IMG/VR virus record: IMGVR_UViG_3300030102_000996
Span: 1 to 43,410 of that record
Source of the DNA: a virus
DNA: 43,410 nt
Direction: 5' to 3' (one strand)
Shown here: piece by piece, positions 20,678 through 36,448 of the stretch
Numbering within the stretch: the first letter of the stretch is position 1
Layout: every line of letters starts with the position of its first letter
The notes under the pieces: model-generated
The model's input: only the letters and a program-made list of their open reading frames with translations
Told to the model about the DNA's origin: nothing
Database searches by the model: none
Made by a program: the position numbers and the translations under genes

Positions 20678-21060
20678 TGAAAGCCAAAAACAAGATAGTA
20701 AGGTTGCGTAATAAGTACCCTTTAATGTCTTCAGCGGAAATTAGTAGGAAAGTAGGGGTCAGTCGTGTCTATGTTCATAATATTTTAAAGCAAAATGACC
20801 TACAAACTAAGGTTCCAAAACCCCAAAAGGTGGTATACTGTAAAGAGTGTGGGGAGATAACCACCGATAAAGGTAGAATACACAAAGGAGAATGTACTTT
20901 TAACTCAAGATTCATGAGATTGACATGTTCTTGGTGCAAAATACCTTTTTATAGAAGAAAAACGATAGTAAAAGTAAGGATAAAGAATAAATTAAAGAAT
21001 ATTTACTGTTCATACAAGTGTTATGCCGAATATAGACGATACAATGCAAATAAACGATGA
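20677..21060 (+). CDS. HTH and zinc-binding putative transcription regulator (127 aa)
   Basis: Residues about 5-42 form a basic helix-turn-helix (LRNKYPLMSSAEISRKVGVSRVYVHNIL). They are followed by a CKECGE element near residue 55 and a second set, CSWC near 88 and CSYKC near 113, which together can make one or two zinc knuckles. The protein is strongly basic. It overlaps the start of the sigma-like gene by 38 nt, so the two are co-expressed and may act together. A role as DNA-binding regulator or sigma partner is inferred. An HNH-like nuclease was considered, but no HNH signature is visible. Confidence 0.65.
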   Translation: MKAKNKIVRLRNKYPLMSSAEISRKVGVSRVYVHNILKQNDLQTKVPKPQKVVYCKECGEITTDKGRIHKGECTFNSRFMRLTCSWCKIPFYRRKTIVKVRIKNKLKNIYCSYKCYAEYRRYNANKR

Positions 21061-21550
21061 GTTAATTGAAAAATGGGAGCCAAAAATCTATAAAATGTTG
21101 CAAAATGCTTACATTGAGGGGTGGGAGAAGGAAGATTTAGTCCAAGAGCTTAGATTGACAGTAATTAGGGCGGCAAAAAAGTATAATCCAAATAAAAATG
21201 CGTCATTTCACACTTATTTACACACTGCAATGGTAAATACCTTAAGAACTTTACATACAAAGTCCACTAAAAAGGTACAAACAGTCAGTATGGATAGAAA
21301 TAACTCATCTGGTCACGCAGATAACGATGATTTTACATTAAAAGATTTATTACCTAGTGAAGACAATCATATAGATGAAATTAGGTTAGACCATTTTTTA
21401 AATTCTTTAGGCTTAGAAAAAAGTGAAAAAGAGTTCTTGACAATGAAGTATAAAAATTATACTATGGAACGCATACAAGATAATTTGACTGATACTTCGA
21501 TATATAAAGTCAAGAAATCTTTAAGAAATAAGTATAAAGAAGGAGAATAG
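21023..21550 (+). CDS. RNA polymerase sigma factor, sigma-70 family-like (175 aa)
   Basis: Residues about 20-80 match sigma-70 region 2: DLVQELRLTVIRAAKKY (core-binding and -10 recognition helices), then FHTYLHTAMVNTLRTLHTK with the conserved F-x-x-Y and N. Residues about 125-172 (SEKEFLTMKYKNYTMERIQDNL) look like a reduced region 4 helix-turn-helix. Region 1 is absent, as in T4 gp55 and ECF-type factors. It would direct host RNA polymerase to phage promoters, most likely the AGTATAATA sites. The start has no clear ribosome binding site; translation is probably coupled to the overlapping upstream gene, and ATG at 21044 is an alternative start. Confidence 0.75.
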   Translation: MPNIDDTMQINDELIEKWEPKIYKMLQNAYIEGWEKEDLVQELRLTVIRAAKKYNPNKNASFHTYLHTAMVNTLRTLHTKSTKKVQTVSMDRNNSSGHADNDDFTLKDLLPSEDNHIDEIRLDHFLNSLGLEKSEKEFLTMKYKNYTMERIQDNLTDTSIYKVKKSLRNKYKEGE

Positions 21551-22792
21551 TTGGAAAATTTTAATTTTATAGAGTCGGGACTCATATTTGGATTATGTGA
21601 GTCAAACAATTACAAAGCTTTTACGCATCCTGTAAAAGACTTTGCTAATCATGGAGAAGCATACAAATTTATTCAAAAGCATTTAGATGAATACAAAGAG
21701 TTTCCTAAGTGTGAAGTATTATTAGAAAAGTTTCCTCAGTTATCAAAAGATGCAAAAGACATAAACTTTCAATATGCATTAGGTGAATTTAAGAAACATG
21801 TAATGTACAGGAATATTATCTCTGCCTTCTCTGAACAGAAGCCTATACTGAGGGAAGACCCGAAGAAAGCTTTATCATTAATTATGGATGGCTTACATGA
21901 TGTAGAGATATTACATGATGCTGATGTAGTTCAGTATGATTCAGGTGAGTTGGATAGATTTGAAGAGTGGAAAGAGAAGAATGCTAAAAGAGAACTAGGT
22001 GATGGCATGATAGGTATACCTACACCATTTAATGTTATAAATTCAACAGGTATGGGATGGCAACCGGGAGATTTAATTACTGCTTATGCTAGACCAACTG
22101 TAGGTAAGACTTGGTTATGTTGTAAGATAGCAGCAATAGCAGTAGAGAAAGGATTTAAGACATTATTAGTATCTACAGAAATGACTAGAGCTTCTATAAA
22201 TCTAAGGATGGATGTTATACTAGGTCATATGAGAGGTTTTAATCTATCACATTCTGCTATACGAAACGGTAATGAAATAGATGAGAGTGAATATAAAAGG
22301 TTTCTAACCGAGACTGATTCTAAAAATCTATTAATATGTGACCATATTAGTGGTGAGGATAGTATATCTCTACCTAGTATAAATAATCTAGTTAGGAAAT
22401 ACTCTCCTGACTTATTAGTAATAGATGGCGTATACTTAATATCTCAAGATAGTAACAAGGCTGCATGGGAGCAATCACATTCATTGTTTTATGGACTAAA
22501 GAACTTAGCACTATCTACTAATACGGCGATAATGGCATCAACTCAAGCTACTAGAGATGCGGCTGACATGTATGTGCCACCTGCTCCTAGTCAAGTGGCA
22601 TTTGGTGATGCATTGATTAGAGCGTCAGATGTGGCAGTATCTATGTCAATGATGAAAGATGATTTAGATATGCCGATAGCAGATAAAAGACAAATACAAT
22701 TTCAAAAATATAGAGATGGGGATTTAGCATTTAATGACTTTGACTTTATATGGAGGGTAAACAATGGACACATTGAGCAAGCTAATGCATAA
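21551..22792 (+). CDS. Replicative DNA helicase, DnaB/gp41-like (413 aa)
   Basis: A RecA-fold hexameric helicase that unwinds the phage replication fork. Walker A is ARPTVGKTW (residues about 180-188), LLVSTEM follows near 208, and Walker B is DLLVIDGVYLI near 290-300; AIMASTQATRDA near 325 is the sensor-like H3/H4 region. The N-terminal 150 residues are helical and probably bind primase. The start is TTG at 21551, chosen because AAGGAG ends 7 nt upstream and because it abuts the sigma gene stop. Primase follows after one small overlapping gene. Confidence 0.85.
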   Translation: MENFNFIESGLIFGLCESNNYKAFTHPVKDFANHGEAYKFIQKHLDEYKEFPKCEVLLEKFPQLSKDAKDINFQYALGEFKKHVMYRNIISAFSEQKPILREDPKKALSLIMDGLHDVEILHDADVVQYDSGELDRFEEWKEKNAKRELGDGMIGIPTPFNVINSTGMGWQPGDLITAYARPTVGKTWLCCKIAAIAVEKGFKTLLVSTEMTRASINLRMDVILGHMRGFNLSHSAIRNGNEIDESEYKRFLTETDSKNLLICDHISGEDSISLPSINNLVRKYSPDLLVIDGVYLISQDSNKAAWEQSHSLFYGLKNLALSTNTAIMASTQATRDAADMYVPPAPSQVAFGDALIRASDVAVSMSMMKDDLDMPIADKRQIQFQKYRDGDLAFNDFDFIWRVNNGHIEQANA

Positions 22793-23048
22793 ATATAAAG
22801 ACCAAACCTTTTTACAATTAAGGTGTGGTAAATGTAGTGCTAATGGTAAACTTAAAACTGGATTGACAGTGAAAGTGCCTATACTAAAAGCAGACGGAAG
22901 TGCAAAAGTTAAAATATTAGGAATAATAAAAGACGACCCCTCATGTATAAAATGTGGAACTACATTTCCTGAGGGATATAGACAAGTAAAAGATGACATC
23001 ATATACAGGATTAGACCAACAAAAACAAGATATGATAGACTGGACTGA
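22764..23048 (+). CDS. Zinc-ribbon protein between helicase and primase (94 aa)
   Basis: Cys pairs CGKC (residues 21-24) and CIKC (61-64) frame a beta-rich middle, a CxxC-x36-CxxC zinc ribbon. The gene overlaps the helicase end by 29 nt and the primase start by 56 nt, with GGAGG upstream of ATG 22764, so all three are translationally linked. A zinc ribbon at this position could be a split-off primase or loader domain or a ssDNA-binding accessory protein. That is inference; no family recognised. Confidence 0.65.
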   Translation: MDTLSKLMHKYKDQTFLQLRCGKCSANGKLKTGLTVKVPILKADGSAKVKILGIIKDDPSCIKCGTTFPEGYRQVKDDIIYRIRPTKTRYDRLD

Positions 23049-23904
23049 AATCTTACACAAGATTGGTGTAGATGTACCATTAGGTGCAGAACAGTTTAAT
23101 ATAGAATGTCCTTTTCATAAGGATGATAAACCTTCGTTAGCTATAAATACTAATAAAGGTGTATGGATATGCTTTGCTGGCTGTGGTCAAGGTAGTTTAA
23201 AAAGCTTTATAAGAAAACGTATGGGATGGAGTGCTCGTAAAATACTAGACTTTTTAGTAGAGAACTCGGAGGGTTATGACCCTGTAAAAATGTTTGAGAT
23301 AGATACTCCTGCCCCTCTTGGATTATCAGCACTTGAAGAAAAAGAGTTCCCTTTTAAACAATATGTAGTGCCTAAATGGATATTTGACAGAGGGTTTGAT
23401 AAGTTTACATTGAATAGATGGGGGTGTGGCATAACATCTAGTAATGGATTAGTAATCCCTGCTCATAATAAAGATGCAAAACTAGTTGGGTGGATAATTA
23501 GAAGGGAGTTTGGTGTGCCTAAATATGTTTACGCTAAAGGATTTAAGAAATCACATATATTATTTGGGCAACCATTAGTGGATACATCCAATGCAGTGTG
23601 TATAACTGAAGGTGCACTAGATGCAATGTGGTTGAATCAGCTTGGATATCAGGCAGTTGCTTTACTTGGTATGCAAATGTCTAAGGTTCAAGAGGAGTTA
23701 ATATTAGAATTACCATCTAAAGAAATTATCTTATGTTTAGATAATGATGAAGCAGGTGAAAAAGGTAGAGATTACATATTGACAAGATTAAGAGGTCGTG
23801 TTAATATATCTTATCTGAAACTTCCTATAGGATATAAAGATGTGCAGGAAGTTAAAAATTATGATACAATAAAAGAAACAATAGAAAACCGGAGAATCTG
23901 GTGA
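22993..23904 (+). CDS. DNA primase, DnaG type (303 aa)
   Basis: Synthesises RNA primers at the fork. The N-terminus has a CHC2 zinc motif: ECPFH near residue 35, then VWICFAGCGQG near 60. The C-terminal half holds a TOPRIM domain with ITEGALDA near 210 (catalytic Glu) and LCLDNDEAG near 245 (DxD metal site). At 303 residues it is compact and lacks the helicase-binding C-terminal domain of bacterial DnaG. The start is uncertain: ATG 22993 overlaps the zinc-ribbon gene, while ATG 23032 would start MIDWTEILHKIG and keep all motifs; neither has a strong ribosome binding site. Confidence 0.85.
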   Translation: MTSYTGLDQQKQDMIDWTEILHKIGVDVPLGAEQFNIECPFHKDDKPSLAINTNKGVWICFAGCGQGSLKSFIRKRMGWSARKILDFLVENSEGYDPVKMFEIDTPAPLGLSALEEKEFPFKQYVVPKWIFDRGFDKFTLNRWGCGITSSNGLVIPAHNKDAKLVGWIIRREFGVPKYVYAKGFKKSHILFGQPLVDTSNAVCITEGALDAMWLNQLGYQAVALLGMQMSKVQEELILELPSKEIILCLDNDEAGEKGRDYILTRLRGRVNISYLKLPIGYKDVQEVKNYDTIKETIENRRIW

Positions 23905-23914
23905 AGGAGAAAAG

Positions 23915-24667
23915 ATGGCAGGAATAGCCGACATACAAAACAGATACGAGAGTTATCAGAAGAATAGAAACTCTCTATCAAACAATAGCTTAGGCAGGGA
24001 ACTGTTCTTGAAACAAGATGGAGACCAAGCCTTTATAAAATCAATAGCAACAGGGACACCTGAAGACCCTTATCTAGCAGAGATAAGATTGCACACTTTC
24101 AGAGAAGATGGAAGATGGCAGTCTGTTCTACATACTGAAGAAGGACCTGCAGATGAAGTTCCAGAAGGAAGTGTACCTTCAAGAAAGTTTGCTTTATGGG
24201 CATATGTATCAGAAGTTATACACCCTGAGAAACCAAACTTAGGACTCGCAGGAGACTTAGATTGGGAAGAACGCACATTACCATCAGGTAAGACTGTGTT
24301 TGTTGAGCCTATAAATGATTTTAGAATTATTACTCTAAGCTTCGGAAGAGGCAGATACCTATGGAATGAACTTGTCGACATATACAATGATTGGCAAGGA
24401 CTAGATAAAGGTGTCCTTAGAATAAAAAGAAATGGTTTGAGCACTGATACTACTTATACCATTACAACTGTTTCTGATAAGAGTATTGAGATACCAGAAG
24501 ATAGGATTAAGGAGACATCTGAATTGACTCCCCTTGATGAATATTTTGCCAATAGATATGGTAAAAAATTCGTACCATCTTCTAACAACAATACACCTAT
24601 GGAAACACCTAAAGACGCAGTATCTACAATGTCTGATGATTCAGATGATGTAGAGATGCCTTTTTAG
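23915..24667 (+). CDS. Single-stranded DNA-binding protein-like (250 aa)
   Basis: Residues 1-190 are a beta-rich core with aromatic and basic residues (FRIITLSFGRGRYLWNELVD). The C-terminus is a flexible Asn/Ser/Asp linker ending DDSDDVEMPF, closely resembling the acidic tip with terminal Pro-Phe of bacterial SSBs (DDDIPF) that recruits partner proteins. Position between primase and DNA polymerase fits. The core does not look like a textbook OB fold by eye, so it may be a divergent phage SSB of the T4 gp32 or T7 gp2.5 functional class. AAGGAG precedes the start 10 nt after primase. Confidence 0.65.
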   Translation: MAGIADIQNRYESYQKNRNSLSNNSLGRELFLKQDGDQAFIKSIATGTPEDPYLAEIRLHTFREDGRWQSVLHTEEGPADEVPEGSVPSRKFALWAYVSEVIHPEKPNLGLAGDLDWEERTLPSGKTVFVEPINDFRIITLSFGRGRYLWNELVDIYNDWQGLDKGVLRIKRNGLSTDTTYTITTVSDKSIEIPEDRIKETSELTPLDEYFANRYGKKFVPSSNNNTPMETPKDAVSTMSDDSDDVEMPF

Positions 24668-24683
24668 TAACCTCCTCTCAATC

Positions 24684-24715
24684 TCCTCCCCAAGTTTGAC
24701 TCATCTTGGGGAGGA
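24684..24715 (+). promoter_or_regulatory. Perfect 11-bp hairpin burying the DNA polymerase Shine-Dalgarno site
   Basis: TCCTCCCCAAG (24684-24694) and CTTGGGGAGGA (24705-24715) are exact reverse complements separated by a 10-nt loop. The right arm contains GGGGAGGA, the polymerase ribosome binding site, 9 nt before ATG 24725. No U-run follows, so a translational switch or RNA-processing site is more likely than a simple terminator. A second CCTCCT at 24671-24676 could also pair with the site. Confidence 0.8.
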
Positions 24716-24724
24716 TAAATAATT

Positions 24725-26731
24725 ATGAACTCATTAATAGTAAATACAGATAATTTTAAAGATACACTTAGCTCACTTAAGAATGACTACAGTGCTACAA
24801 ATACTTGGATAATAGACGTAGAAACTAACGGTTTAGATGTTTATAATTCTGATATTAAATTATGTGGTATAGGACTTACTCCCGTAACAAATCATGATAC
24901 AATAGATGTCGCACCCACTTACTACTTTCCTGTAAGACATGAGGAAGGGAATAATTTAGAAATGTCTGACGTAAACGATTTGATACAGTTTCTAAATGAT
25001 ACATGTCATATACTTATTGGATACAATATTAAATTTGATGCTAAGTTTTTAGAAAAACAAGGGATGGATATATCTAATATGCAGATGATTGATGTGTTGG
25101 TCATGGTTAGAATGACAGAGGCTACCACAGTAAACAAATTAAGTCTATTGGATATAACTATAAAAGACTACGGAGAAGTTGCTGGTCAGTATGATTTAGA
25201 TACAGACAAAATTCTAAAGTCAAACCGCACTGATGGAGTAAGATGGAAAGATAATTACTCGTTAGCACCTGTTGATGTATTAGGTCCATACTGTATAGAG
25301 GATGTTAAATGCACTAAAAGACTATATGTTGATAGATTATCTAAGATAAAACAAGCAGGTATGACTGACTTATTAAAGTTACAATGTAAGTTAAGTAAGG
25401 CTTTATATGATATGGAAAGCAGGGGTGTTGCTATAGATAATAAATATGCCCAAACTGCTAATAAAAGAATCCTTACAAGATTAAATAAGTTAGAGCAACG
25501 TATATATGATTTAGCCAAAAGTGAGTTAGGTTTTGATAAGATAGACTTTAAGTTTAATATTAGTAGTCCATCACAGATAGGGGAGATATTTAATAAGATG
25601 AATATACACTCTCCTGTTCAAACTAGCACGGGAGCAGAGGCTTGGAATGAAGCAGTCTTAGTTCAAGTTAATCACCCACTCGCAGGGTTGATAAGACAAT
25701 ATAGAACACTTAATAAATTTAATTCTACTTACATAGAGCCTTATTTAGAGATGCCCGTATTACATACAGGATTTAAAAACTGGGGTACTGTCACGGGTAG
25801 GTTATCATCTAGTAACCCTAATTTACAGAACATACCTAGAGACACGATATACGTTGCAGACAGGGAACTTGATGAAGAACAACGTGATGAAGTTAAGGGT
25901 AGGATATCTGCTTTGATATCTAGCAAAGGTGGCGATTCCACTGTGACTCTTACTGATGATGTGGTTGATACATGGAGTTTTTTAGGTGGAGATAAGTTTG
26001 ATGTCAAAGATAAAACACAGATTGCTATACGACATCTATTCGTACCTCGTAAGGATTACACACTTATGGCGTATGATTACTCACAGATGGAAGTTAGAGT
26101 CTTCATGTATTATGTTGATAACGCTGAAATGAATGAACTCATGAAACAAGATGATGTAGACTTTCATGGAGAAGCAGCTAAGATAGCTTTTAATATGGAT
26201 GAGGATAACCCTGAATTTAAGTTTTATAGACAATTAGCTAAGTCAATTACTTTTGGAGTTATATATGGTATTGGTAAAGATAAGCTGGCAATGCAATTAA
26301 ATACAAGTGCTAATGAAGCTTTTAGATATAAAAAGACATATTTAGAAAACATGAAAGGGTCAAAAGAATTTTTTAACTCTGTGGTTAAGACTATTGAAAC
26401 TAAGGGTTGGGTTAGAAATAAGTATGGAAGAATATACAAAGTTCCAAAAGATTATGCATATAGAGGTGTAAATTACTTGATTCAGGGCACAAGTGCTGAT
26501 ATTATGAGTGAAAGAATAGTAGAAATACACGATTACCTAAAAGATAAGAAGAGTAATCTACTACTTCAAGTGCACGATGAAGTTATATGTGAGATACATA
26601 AGTCGGAGTTGGATGAAGTAGCACCTAAAATTAAAGAACTAATGAAAGAAAACACATTGAATATCCCACTTGGTGTAGATATGGAAGTATGTAAGCCATC
26701 GTGGGCAGTGAAGGAAGATTATAAATTATGA
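24725..26731 (+). CDS. polA: DNA polymerase, family A with 3'-5' exonuclease (668 aa)
   Basis: The replicative polymerase. The exonuclease domain has Exo I WIIDVETNGLD (D and E near residues 30-32), Exo II IGYNIKFDAKF near 98 and Exo III YCIEDVKCT near 190. The polymerase domain has VTGRLSSSNPNLQNIPR near 355, motif A MAYDYSQMEVR near 445, motif B RQLAKSITFGVIYG near 500 and motif C LLQVHDEV near 615. The residue equivalent to E. coli Phe762 is Phe. No 5'-nuclease domain is present, as in T7-like and other phage enzymes. An insert of about 45 residues lies before motif A. The start follows GGGGAGGA, which lies inside a hairpin; the stop overlaps bS21 by 4 nt (ATGA). Confidence 0.95.
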   Translation: MNSLIVNTDNFKDTLSSLKNDYSATNTWIIDVETNGLDVYNSDIKLCGIGLTPVTNHDTIDVAPTYYFPVRHEEGNNLEMSDVNDLIQFLNDTCHILIGYNIKFDAKFLEKQGMDISNMQMIDVLVMVRMTEATTVNKLSLLDITIKDYGEVAGQYDLDTDKILKSNRTDGVRWKDNYSLAPVDVLGPYCIEDVKCTKRLYVDRLSKIKQAGMTDLLKLQCKLSKALYDMESRGVAIDNKYAQTANKRILTRLNKLEQRIYDLAKSELGFDKIDFKFNISSPSQIGEIFNKMNIHSPVQTSTGAEAWNEAVLVQVNHPLAGLIRQYRTLNKFNSTYIEPYLEMPVLHTGFKNWGTVTGRLSSSNPNLQNIPRDTIYVADRELDEEQRDEVKGRISALISSKGGDSTVTLTDDVVDTWSFLGGDKFDVKDKTQIAIRHLFVPRKDYTLMAYDYSQMEVRVFMYYVDNAEMNELMKQDDVDFHGEAAKIAFNMDEDNPEFKFYRQLAKSITFGVIYGIGKDKLAMQLNTSANEAFRYKKTYLENMKGSKEFFNSVVKTIETKGWVRNKYGRIYKVPKDYAYRGVNYLIQGTSADIMSERIVEIHDYLKDKKSNLLLQVHDEVICEIHKSELDEVAPKIKELMKENTLNIPLGVDMEVCKPSWAVKEDYKL

Positions 26732-34576: not shown

Positions 34577-36448
34577 TTGGTCACGTTAACACAACAAGCA
34601 GAAACAGTCGCATCAAAAAGATATTACTTAAAAGACGAATCAGGTGAACCTGAAGAAAACGCAAACACGTTATTGAAACGAGTAGCTAAAGCTATAGCTT
34701 CCTCTGAAAAGTTGTATGGAAAGACAGATGCTGACACACAACTAACTGAAAAAGAATTTTATGACATGATGTCATCATTAAACTTTATTCCTAACTCGCC
34801 TACGTTAATGAACGCGGGCACTGAACAAGGAACATTATCCGCATGTTTTGTGCTACCTTTAGAAGATAGCATGGAAGATATTATGAAGGCGGCTCATGAC
34901 ATAGCTATGGTGCAAAAATTTGGTGGGGGCACAGGATTTGCATTAAGTAAACTCCGACCAAAGGGAGATAAGATTAAGACCACACATGGTATTGCATGTG
35001 GTCCAATACAAGTATTACAAACACTATCTAGAGTATCATCCATGATTACTCAAGGTGGTAAAAGAGATGGAGCAAATATGGCAGTAATGTCAGTTTATCA
35101 TCCAGATATATTAGAGTTTATTGACTGTAAAAAAGTGGAAGGTGATATACATAACTTCAACATATCAGTAGGTGTAGACTCTAACTTTATGAAAGCCGTA
35201 GAAGCTAATCTTAATTACCCACTAATAAATCCAAAGACTAAACAAGTAGTTGGTGAACTAAATGCAAAAGAAGTATTTGATAAGATGGTATATGGTGCAT
35301 GGAGAAATGGTGAACCGGGTATGATTTTCTTAGACGAAGTAAATAAGGACAACCATGTTACAGAAGAATATGGTGAGATGATTGCAACTAATCCATGTGG
35401 TGAACAGCCACTATTAGGAAACGAATCTTGTAACTTAGGGTCAATTAATTTAGCTAATTTTGTAGAATCTAGAGAAGTAAGACCTTACATTAAGTGGGAT
35501 GAATTAAGAGCTACAATAAAAACAGCTACAAGATTTTTAGACAATGTAATTGATGCAAACAAATATGCAACTCCAGAAATAGAAAAAATGACTAAGGCTA
35601 CAAGAAAAATAGGTTTAGGTATTATGGGATTTGCAGATATGCTTACACAACTTAGAGTATCATATGGCTCTAAAGAAGGCAGAAAGATAGGGTCTGATGT
35701 AATGAGATTCTTGAAAACTCACGCAGATAAAGCATCAATTGAATTAGCAGAAGAAAGAGGAACTTTCCCTGCATGGGATAACAGTGATTACAGTGATGAT
35801 GAAAAGTATAGGAACGCTTGCCGACTAACTGTAGCCCCTACAGGAACTATCTCTATGTTTGCTGATGCGTCTAGTGGAGTAGAACCTTTGTTTTCTTTAG
35901 CATATAGAAAGATGAACATATTAGAAGGGGAGACTCTTTACTATGTAAATAAATACTTTGAACAAGATGCAAAGGAAATGGGTTTTTATTCAGAAGACCT
36001 TATGGAATATTTATCTGATGGTGGCTCACTTAAAGATAGAAGTGAAGTACCTGATGAAATAAAAGATATTTACACAACTGCACCTGAAATATCTCCTGAA
36101 GCACATGTAGGAATGCAAGCAGCTTTCCAACAATATTGTGATTCTGGGATATCTAAGACCATAAACTTCGCAAATGATGCTACAATAGAAGATGTGTACA
36201 CAACTTACATGCTAGCTTGGAAAACAAAATGTAAAGGAATTACAGTTTACAGAGCTGGTAGCAGAGATAAAGAAGTATTGGTAACAGCACACAAGTCAGA
36301 AGAGACTACTGCTACTACAACGGAAGAACAACTTAATTTCTTTCAGGAAATAGAAGATGCAGAATGTTGTGCAGAACCTAACATAGTAATGGAATCTGGT
36401 TGTAAGACATGTAAAGTTTGTGGATGGAGTGCTTGTCACATAGCATAA
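34577..36448 (+). CDS. nrdJ: Class II (adenosylcobalamin-dependent) ribonucleotide reductase (623 aa)
   Basis: Reduces ribonucleotides to deoxyribonucleotides using host or imported vitamin B12 and no oxygen-dependent radical subunit. Catalytic residues are visible: C90 (TLSACFVLP) and C285 (NESCNLG) as the redox pair, C274 as thiyl site with N272 and E276 (NPCGEQP); the 11-residue spacing C274-C285 equals that of the Lactobacillus enzyme. FGGGTGFALS near 115 and VAPTGTISMF near 420 are substrate-phosphate loops. The end carries C609, C612, C615 and C620, probably the reductant relay tail. TTG 34577 is the start, 7 nt after AGGAGGAA. It is shorter than many bacterial NrdJ proteins. No thioredoxin gene is in the window. 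Confidence 0.93.
   Translation: MVTLTQQAETVASKRYYLKDESGEPEENANTLLKRVAKAIASSEKLYGKTDADTQLTEKEFYDMMSSLNFIPNSPTLMNAGTEQGTLSACFVLPLEDSMEDIMKAAHDIAMVQKFGGGTGFALSKLRPKGDKIKTTHGIACGPIQVLQTLSRVSSMITQGGKRDGANMAVMSVYHPDILEFIDCKKVEGDIHNFNISVGVDSNFMKAVEANLNYPLINPKTKQVVGELNAKEVFDKMVYGAWRNGEPGMIFLDEVNKDNHVTEEYGEMIATNPCGEQPLLGNESCNLGSINLANFVESREVRPYIKWDELRATIKTATRFLDNVIDANKYATPEIEKMTKATRKIGLGIMGFADMLTQLRVSYGSKEGRKIGSDVMRFLKTHADKASIELAEERGTFPAWDNSDYSDDEKYRNACRLTVAPTGTISMFADASSGVEPLFSLAYRKMNILEGETLYYVNKYFEQDAKEMGFYSEDLMEYLSDGGSLKDRSEVPDEIKDIYTTAPEISPEAHVGMQAAFQQYCDSGISKTINFANDATIEDVYTTYMLAWKTKCKGITVYRAGSRDKEVLVTAHKSEETTATTTEEQLNFFQEIEDAECCAEPNIVMESGCKTCKVCGWSACHIA

Follow-up and report, generated by a model that had tools for sequence, protein, structure and literature searches.

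A covarying RNA hairpin at the ssb-polymerase junction of uncultured phages as a candidate gate for translation of a family A DNA polymerase

Phages are known to bury the Shine-Dalgarno sequence (SD) of certain genes in RNA structure, as in e, soc, 49 and I-TevI of T4 and mobE of Aeh1 (PMC3014915). In these genes an inhibitory hairpin hides the SD or the AUG; with the SD in the 3' arm of a stable stem, 30S binding is predicted to be blocked, and the hairpins silence long early transcripts; for gene e, late promoters have been shown to give a transcript that lacks the 5' arm. The gene 43 operator of T4 and RB69 comprises a short hairpin, which has a conserved loop of UAAC type and stands about 40 nt before the AUG, together with sequence overlapping the ribosome binding site (PMC3014915), and it binds a family B polymerase. 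The T4 proteins gp43 and gp32 are both translational autorepressors (PMC3014915, PMC535899), and the gene 32 element lies upstream of gene 32 itself, where a pseudoknot is followed by UUAAA repeats. The open-access literature yielded no report of hairpin translational control for a family A phage replicative polymerase; such control has been described for T4-like phages, with family B enzymes.

In this study, we examine a hairpin between the genes for a single-stranded DNA-binding protein (ssb) and a family A DNA polymerase (pol) in a viral sequence of 43.4 kb, referred to throughout as the window (Table 1). The reading that we favor, with a probability of roughly 0.7, is that the stem-loop at 24684-24715 acts in cis on the polycistronic ssb-pol message to gate initiation of polymerase translation. 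A strongly covarying element at this junction in uncultured phages offers a directly testable candidate.

Table 1. Replication genes and hairpin components in the window
Feature	Coordinates	Strand	Remarks
Helicase gene	21551-22792		Upstream of primase
Primase gene	22993-23904		Upstream of SSB gene
SSB gene	23915-24667	+	250 aa; acidic tail DDVEMPF; stop TAG 24665-24667
Upstream motif AACCTCCTCTCAAT	24669-24682	+	Predicted single-stranded; invariant in 10/10 distinct group 1 sequences
5' arm TCCTCCCCAAG	24684-24694	+	Pairs with 3' arm over full 11 bp
Loop TTTGACTCAT	24695-24704	+	10 nt; differs between groups 1 and 2, not conserved
3' arm CTTGGGGAGGA	24705-24715	+	Holds the pol SD GGGGAGGA
Family A DNA polymerase gene	24725-26731	+	668 aa, with 3'-5' exonuclease domain; PHROG 17, E 4e-112; Pfam DNA_pol_A, E 1.1e-78

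The helicase, primase, SSB and polymerase genes follow one another in succession. A sequence-only reading of the window had taken the ssb-pol junction for the sole non-overlapping one, which is inexact: the primase and SSB genes are 10 nt apart and other gaps measure 0-1 nt, the 57 nt between ssb and pol being the largest gap in the core replication block. The same reading had described a perfect inverted repeat here, and the hairpin is real, with arms that are 100% complementary over 11 bp. No other perfect stem of at least 11 bp with a loop of 3-20 nt occurs in the window. Dinucleotide shuffles of the window give a mean of 0.6 such stems, and none of 40 shuffles produced one with at least six G/C in the arm. 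The predicted fold is a simple stem-loop, and an Rfam search with the element returned nothing above gathering score.

The ribosome binding site of pol had also been placed within the hairpin, and the 3' arm does include a strong SD, GGGGAGGA (24708-24715), whose GGAGG ends 10 nt upstream of the ATG at 24725. Calculated on naked RNA at 37 C, the opening energy at the pol start is 20.6 kcal/mol. Across 50 ORF starts of the window the mean is 7.9 (sd 3.2), and the next highest value is 12.4 kcal/mol. SDs are common in this genome and that of pol ranks among the strongest; the AAGGAG-like SDs upstream of many genes make SD use by the host likely.

Scans with the polymerase, together with pattern scans of viral contigs, yielded relatives of as little as about 50% identity, all of them contig fragments from uncultured viruses; L030, a relative that differs in its upstream sequence, was left out because its contig may be chimeric or truncated. 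Cellular genomes contained only remote polymerases (23-29% identity), and no host was found among them. In the polymerase tree the hairpin-bearing sequences form a single clade (24 representatives, support 100/100), which comprises group 1, namely the window and its kin (7 tree representatives, 10 distinct junction sequences aligned), and group 2 (17 tree representatives, 19 distinct junction sequences aligned; branch support 90/87). All 24 representatives carry the hairpin between ssb and pol, each genome having a single copy at that junction only. The element is absent from the sister clade of this whole assemblage (L147 and others), in which the ssb stop and the pol start mostly overlap or adjoin, and from more distant relatives. 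A mobile or repeated element was considered and rejected, strong matches being confined to the ssb-pol junction and other pattern matches in viral contigs being chance occurrences without the hairpin. Unrelated strong hairpins that leave the SD outside the stem were seen in the ssb-pol gap of L069/L070, L149/L150 and L160, and it seems that hairpins have arisen here more than once. From the general character of the collection we would guess a marine origin for the hairpin-bearing phages.

Base pairing in the stem is maintained through extensive sequence change. In group 1, 98.2% of alignment cells are paired (slid controls, 44-65%) and both sides have changed in 4 of the 11 pairs; the corresponding values for group 2 are 96.1% (37-56%) and 10 of 12. 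When 23 sequences from both groups are combined (alignment A6), pairing stands at 94.6% (37-60%), with 183 of 184 cells paired in stem columns 21-28, and both sides have changed in 11 of 12 pairs and in 87 cells, although sequences of one clade share ancestry and cell counts do not equal independent events. The covariation score of the combined alignment was reached by none of 500 shuffles, and parsimony on the polymerase tree places dozens of changes over the 12 pairs. Covariation in relatives had been set beforehand as one test of the hairpin, and the many compensatory changes across this one clade show, by sequence comparison, that a plus-strand RNA hairpin is held by selection. That the selected form is RNA of the plus strand, not a DNA palindrome, is indicated by the non-Watson-Crick cells, which comprise 41 G-U and 3 A-C. 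The central part of the 3' arm stays purine across the relatives, which may reflect selection for an SD-like sequence or merely the easy passage afforded by G-U pairs.

A second conserved component lies upstream of the stem. The unpaired AACCUCCUCUCAAU is invariant throughout group 1, and its core ACCUCC recurs in 18 of 19 group 2 sequences, the exception being L067 with ACUUCU. The core stands 7-8 nt upstream of the stem at near-constant spacing. In the window, ACCTCC occurs once on the plus strand, within the element, and 13 times on the minus strand. Two upstream CCTCC segments had been credited with alternative pairings; the one at 24671-24675 is indeed free, while the other, at 24685-24689, is part of the 5' arm. 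Pairing of the free CCTCC with the 3' arm is worth -12.9 kcal/mol in the window, compared with -20.6 kcal/mol for the hairpin, and drops in strength to -6.4 for L009 and -4.7 for L057, in both of which ACCTCC is unchanged, so the relatives give no support for it as a conserved function. Nor was a conserved partner for ACCUCC found when the ssb SD and other conserved GGRGGY sites were considered. We infer that ACCUCC may be a contact for a protein or for the ribosome.

The gene upstream of the hairpin had been called SSB-like, and structure prediction agrees. Its AlphaFold2 model (pLDDT 73.6) has T4/RB69 gp32 as all of its best five PDB matches (E 1.1e-4 to 5.6e-4, TM about 0.4-0.5), the protein had no PHROG match and no Pfam family above cut-off, and its acidic tail ends in a terminal Phe. 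It is probably a distant SSB of the gp32 type. The protein family is kept down to about 40% identity with a terminal -PF or -LF and, judged from the model, looks like an undescribed gp32-type family.

By its anatomy, the pol hairpin is nearer to the structures of T4 e, soc, 49 and I-TevI and Aeh1 mobE than to the gene 43 operator, for here too a stable stem holds the SD in its 3' arm and a block to 30S binding is predicted. It differs from them in that no late promoter like those of gene e was seen, the gene controlled is a replicative polymerase, and an invariant ACCUCC accompanies the stem. The analogy with T4 gp43 drawn in the sequence-only reading holds in so far as an RNA hairpin precedes the start of a phage replicative polymerase. 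It is otherwise loose, as the stem of 11-13 bp itself contains the SD, the loop varies where the T4/RB69 operator has its UAAC-type loop, and the polymerase belongs to family A. The neighboring SSB with its predicted gp32-like fold recalls gene 32, but the element here is a simple stem-loop downstream of ssb, not a pseudoknot upstream of its start (where the SD alone was examined). Two features of phage SD-sequestering (inhibitory TIR) hairpins are found: an SD within a stable stem, in the window and in all 10 distinct group 1 sequences (opening energy, 20.3-23.2 kcal/mol), and a stem kept by compensatory change. In the sequences compared, SD sequestration is limited to the window's own clade, group 1, and does not extend to the whole hairpin-bearing family.

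In group 2 the hairpin lies inside an open reading frame, in contrast to the untranslated junction of group 1. The pol frame is open from the ssb stop through the hairpin in 19 of 19 sequences, with no stops, as compared to 31 and 45 stops in the other two frames; in shuffles a mean of 12.4 sequences, and never fewer than 6, acquired a stop. Gap lengths differ by multiples of three within each subtype, and each of the 18 sequences checked has an in-frame AUG that sits at the ssb stop (TAATG) or precedes it by 17-20 nt. The group 2 loci, L015-L068, may thereby encode an N-terminal leader of roughly 20-30 residues. Since synonymous changes are not enriched in the pol frame, protein-level selection on a leader peptide was rejected; the open frame and the RNA stem are kept and the peptide is not evidently conserved. 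A programmed frameshift from ssb into pol is unlikely, because ssb and pol are related by a -1 shift in the MPF type but by +1 in the SLF type, whereas every sequence offers a start codon at the ssb stop or shortly before it. It is likely from these arrangements that ribosomes finishing ssb reinitiate at its stop and continue across the stem into pol. The 3' arm is 11-22 nt upstream of the internal AUG, at which the hairpin would shut initiation, leaving pol reachable via the in-frame leader. This position, together with the apparent translation from upstream, rules out SD occlusion as a function shared by the whole family.

For the window and its kin, gating of polymerase initiation would operate as follows. 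Access of the 30S subunit to the SD would be blocked unless the stem opens, and a ribosome ending at the ssb stop (24667) would, to judge by footprint size, be too far upstream to melt a stem that begins at 24684, so that synthesis of polymerase would be slow or conditional, whereas SSB, which is needed in quantity, would be produced freely. The factor that opens or locks the stem could be the polymerase, SSB, another phage or host protein, or none. SSB is required in excess over polymerase, and a hairpin that sets a constant low polymerase:SSB ratio with no regulator at all is accordingly quite possible, if short of an even chance. The buried SD of T4 gene e cuts expression about 100-fold (PMC3014915), in keeping with such passive down-tuning. 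However, a weak SD would suffice for that purpose, without conservation of an 11-13 bp stem and ACCUCC through deep divergence, and the SD remains strong; that such an SD is retained within a strong stem speaks for conditional control more than for simple down-tuning. We regard as slightly more doubtful an autogenous operator, in which the hairpin, the invariant AACCUCC or both would be bound by free polymerase (as with T4/RB69 gp43) or by the gp32-like SSB, locking the pol start when enzyme suffices. The element is unique and sits exactly between ssb and pol, its invariant single-stranded motif at a fixed distance from a variable stem resembles a recognition site, and the SSB has the predicted fold of gp32, which with gp43 is a known autorepressor (PMC3014915, PMC535899). 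Against this, the loop is not conserved as it is in the T4/RB69 operator, a pseudoknot was looked for at the element and none was found, and the element never occurs apart from ssb and pol, so it can be assigned to neither. The passive and autogenous schemes are sub-cases of gated initiation that differ in the effector, and confidence in them overlaps with confidence in the gating reading.

Other roles would place the function of the stem outside initiation. That it is an RNase III type processing site, or a 3' barrier shielding the ssb message, with the SD overlap secondary, seems unlikely: 11-13 bp makes a short RNase III substrate, all group 1 sequences retain the SD at its place in the 3' arm, and ACCUCC would be left unexplained. 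In favor of such a role, group 2 retains the stem while showing no evident use of an SD, and the junction hairpins with a free SD noted above point the same way. Very improbable is an intrinsic terminator, a promoter or a DNA-level palindrome (operator or replication site). The hairpin had been said to lack a U tail, and no U tract follows the stem, nor was an intrinsic terminator called there. A sigma-70-like match (10/12) does cover the loop and spacer, but it is lost in L005-L008, L013 and L014, and a promoter at this place would start downstream of the ATG. The G-U to A-C ratio speaks against recognition of duplex DNA, as does, for a DNA-level site, the lack of any plus-strand repeat of AACCTCCTCTCAAT in the window within 3 mismatches.

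A broader interpretation of gated initiation is that the element represents a new class of translational operator, through which the family A polymerase or the gp32-like SSB would autoregulate via ACCUCC and the stem-loop, by SD occlusion in one clade and, from the same position, within a translated in-frame leader that is coupled to ssb in its sister. We consider this rather improbable. The switch of one conserved hairpin from an untranslated, SD-hiding form to a translated, read-through form would make it possible to study how an RNA control element preserves its fold as its mode of action shifts.

Two further genes of the window may be mentioned. The segment at 21023-21550, just upstream of the helicase gene, matches phage RNA polymerase sigma factors (PHROG 351, E 1.8e-13), and its product is a possible phage-encoded sigma factor. 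A ribonucleotide reductase large chain (Pfam Ribonuc_red_lgC, E 1.5e-132) is encoded at 34577-36448, between the terminase and portal genes.
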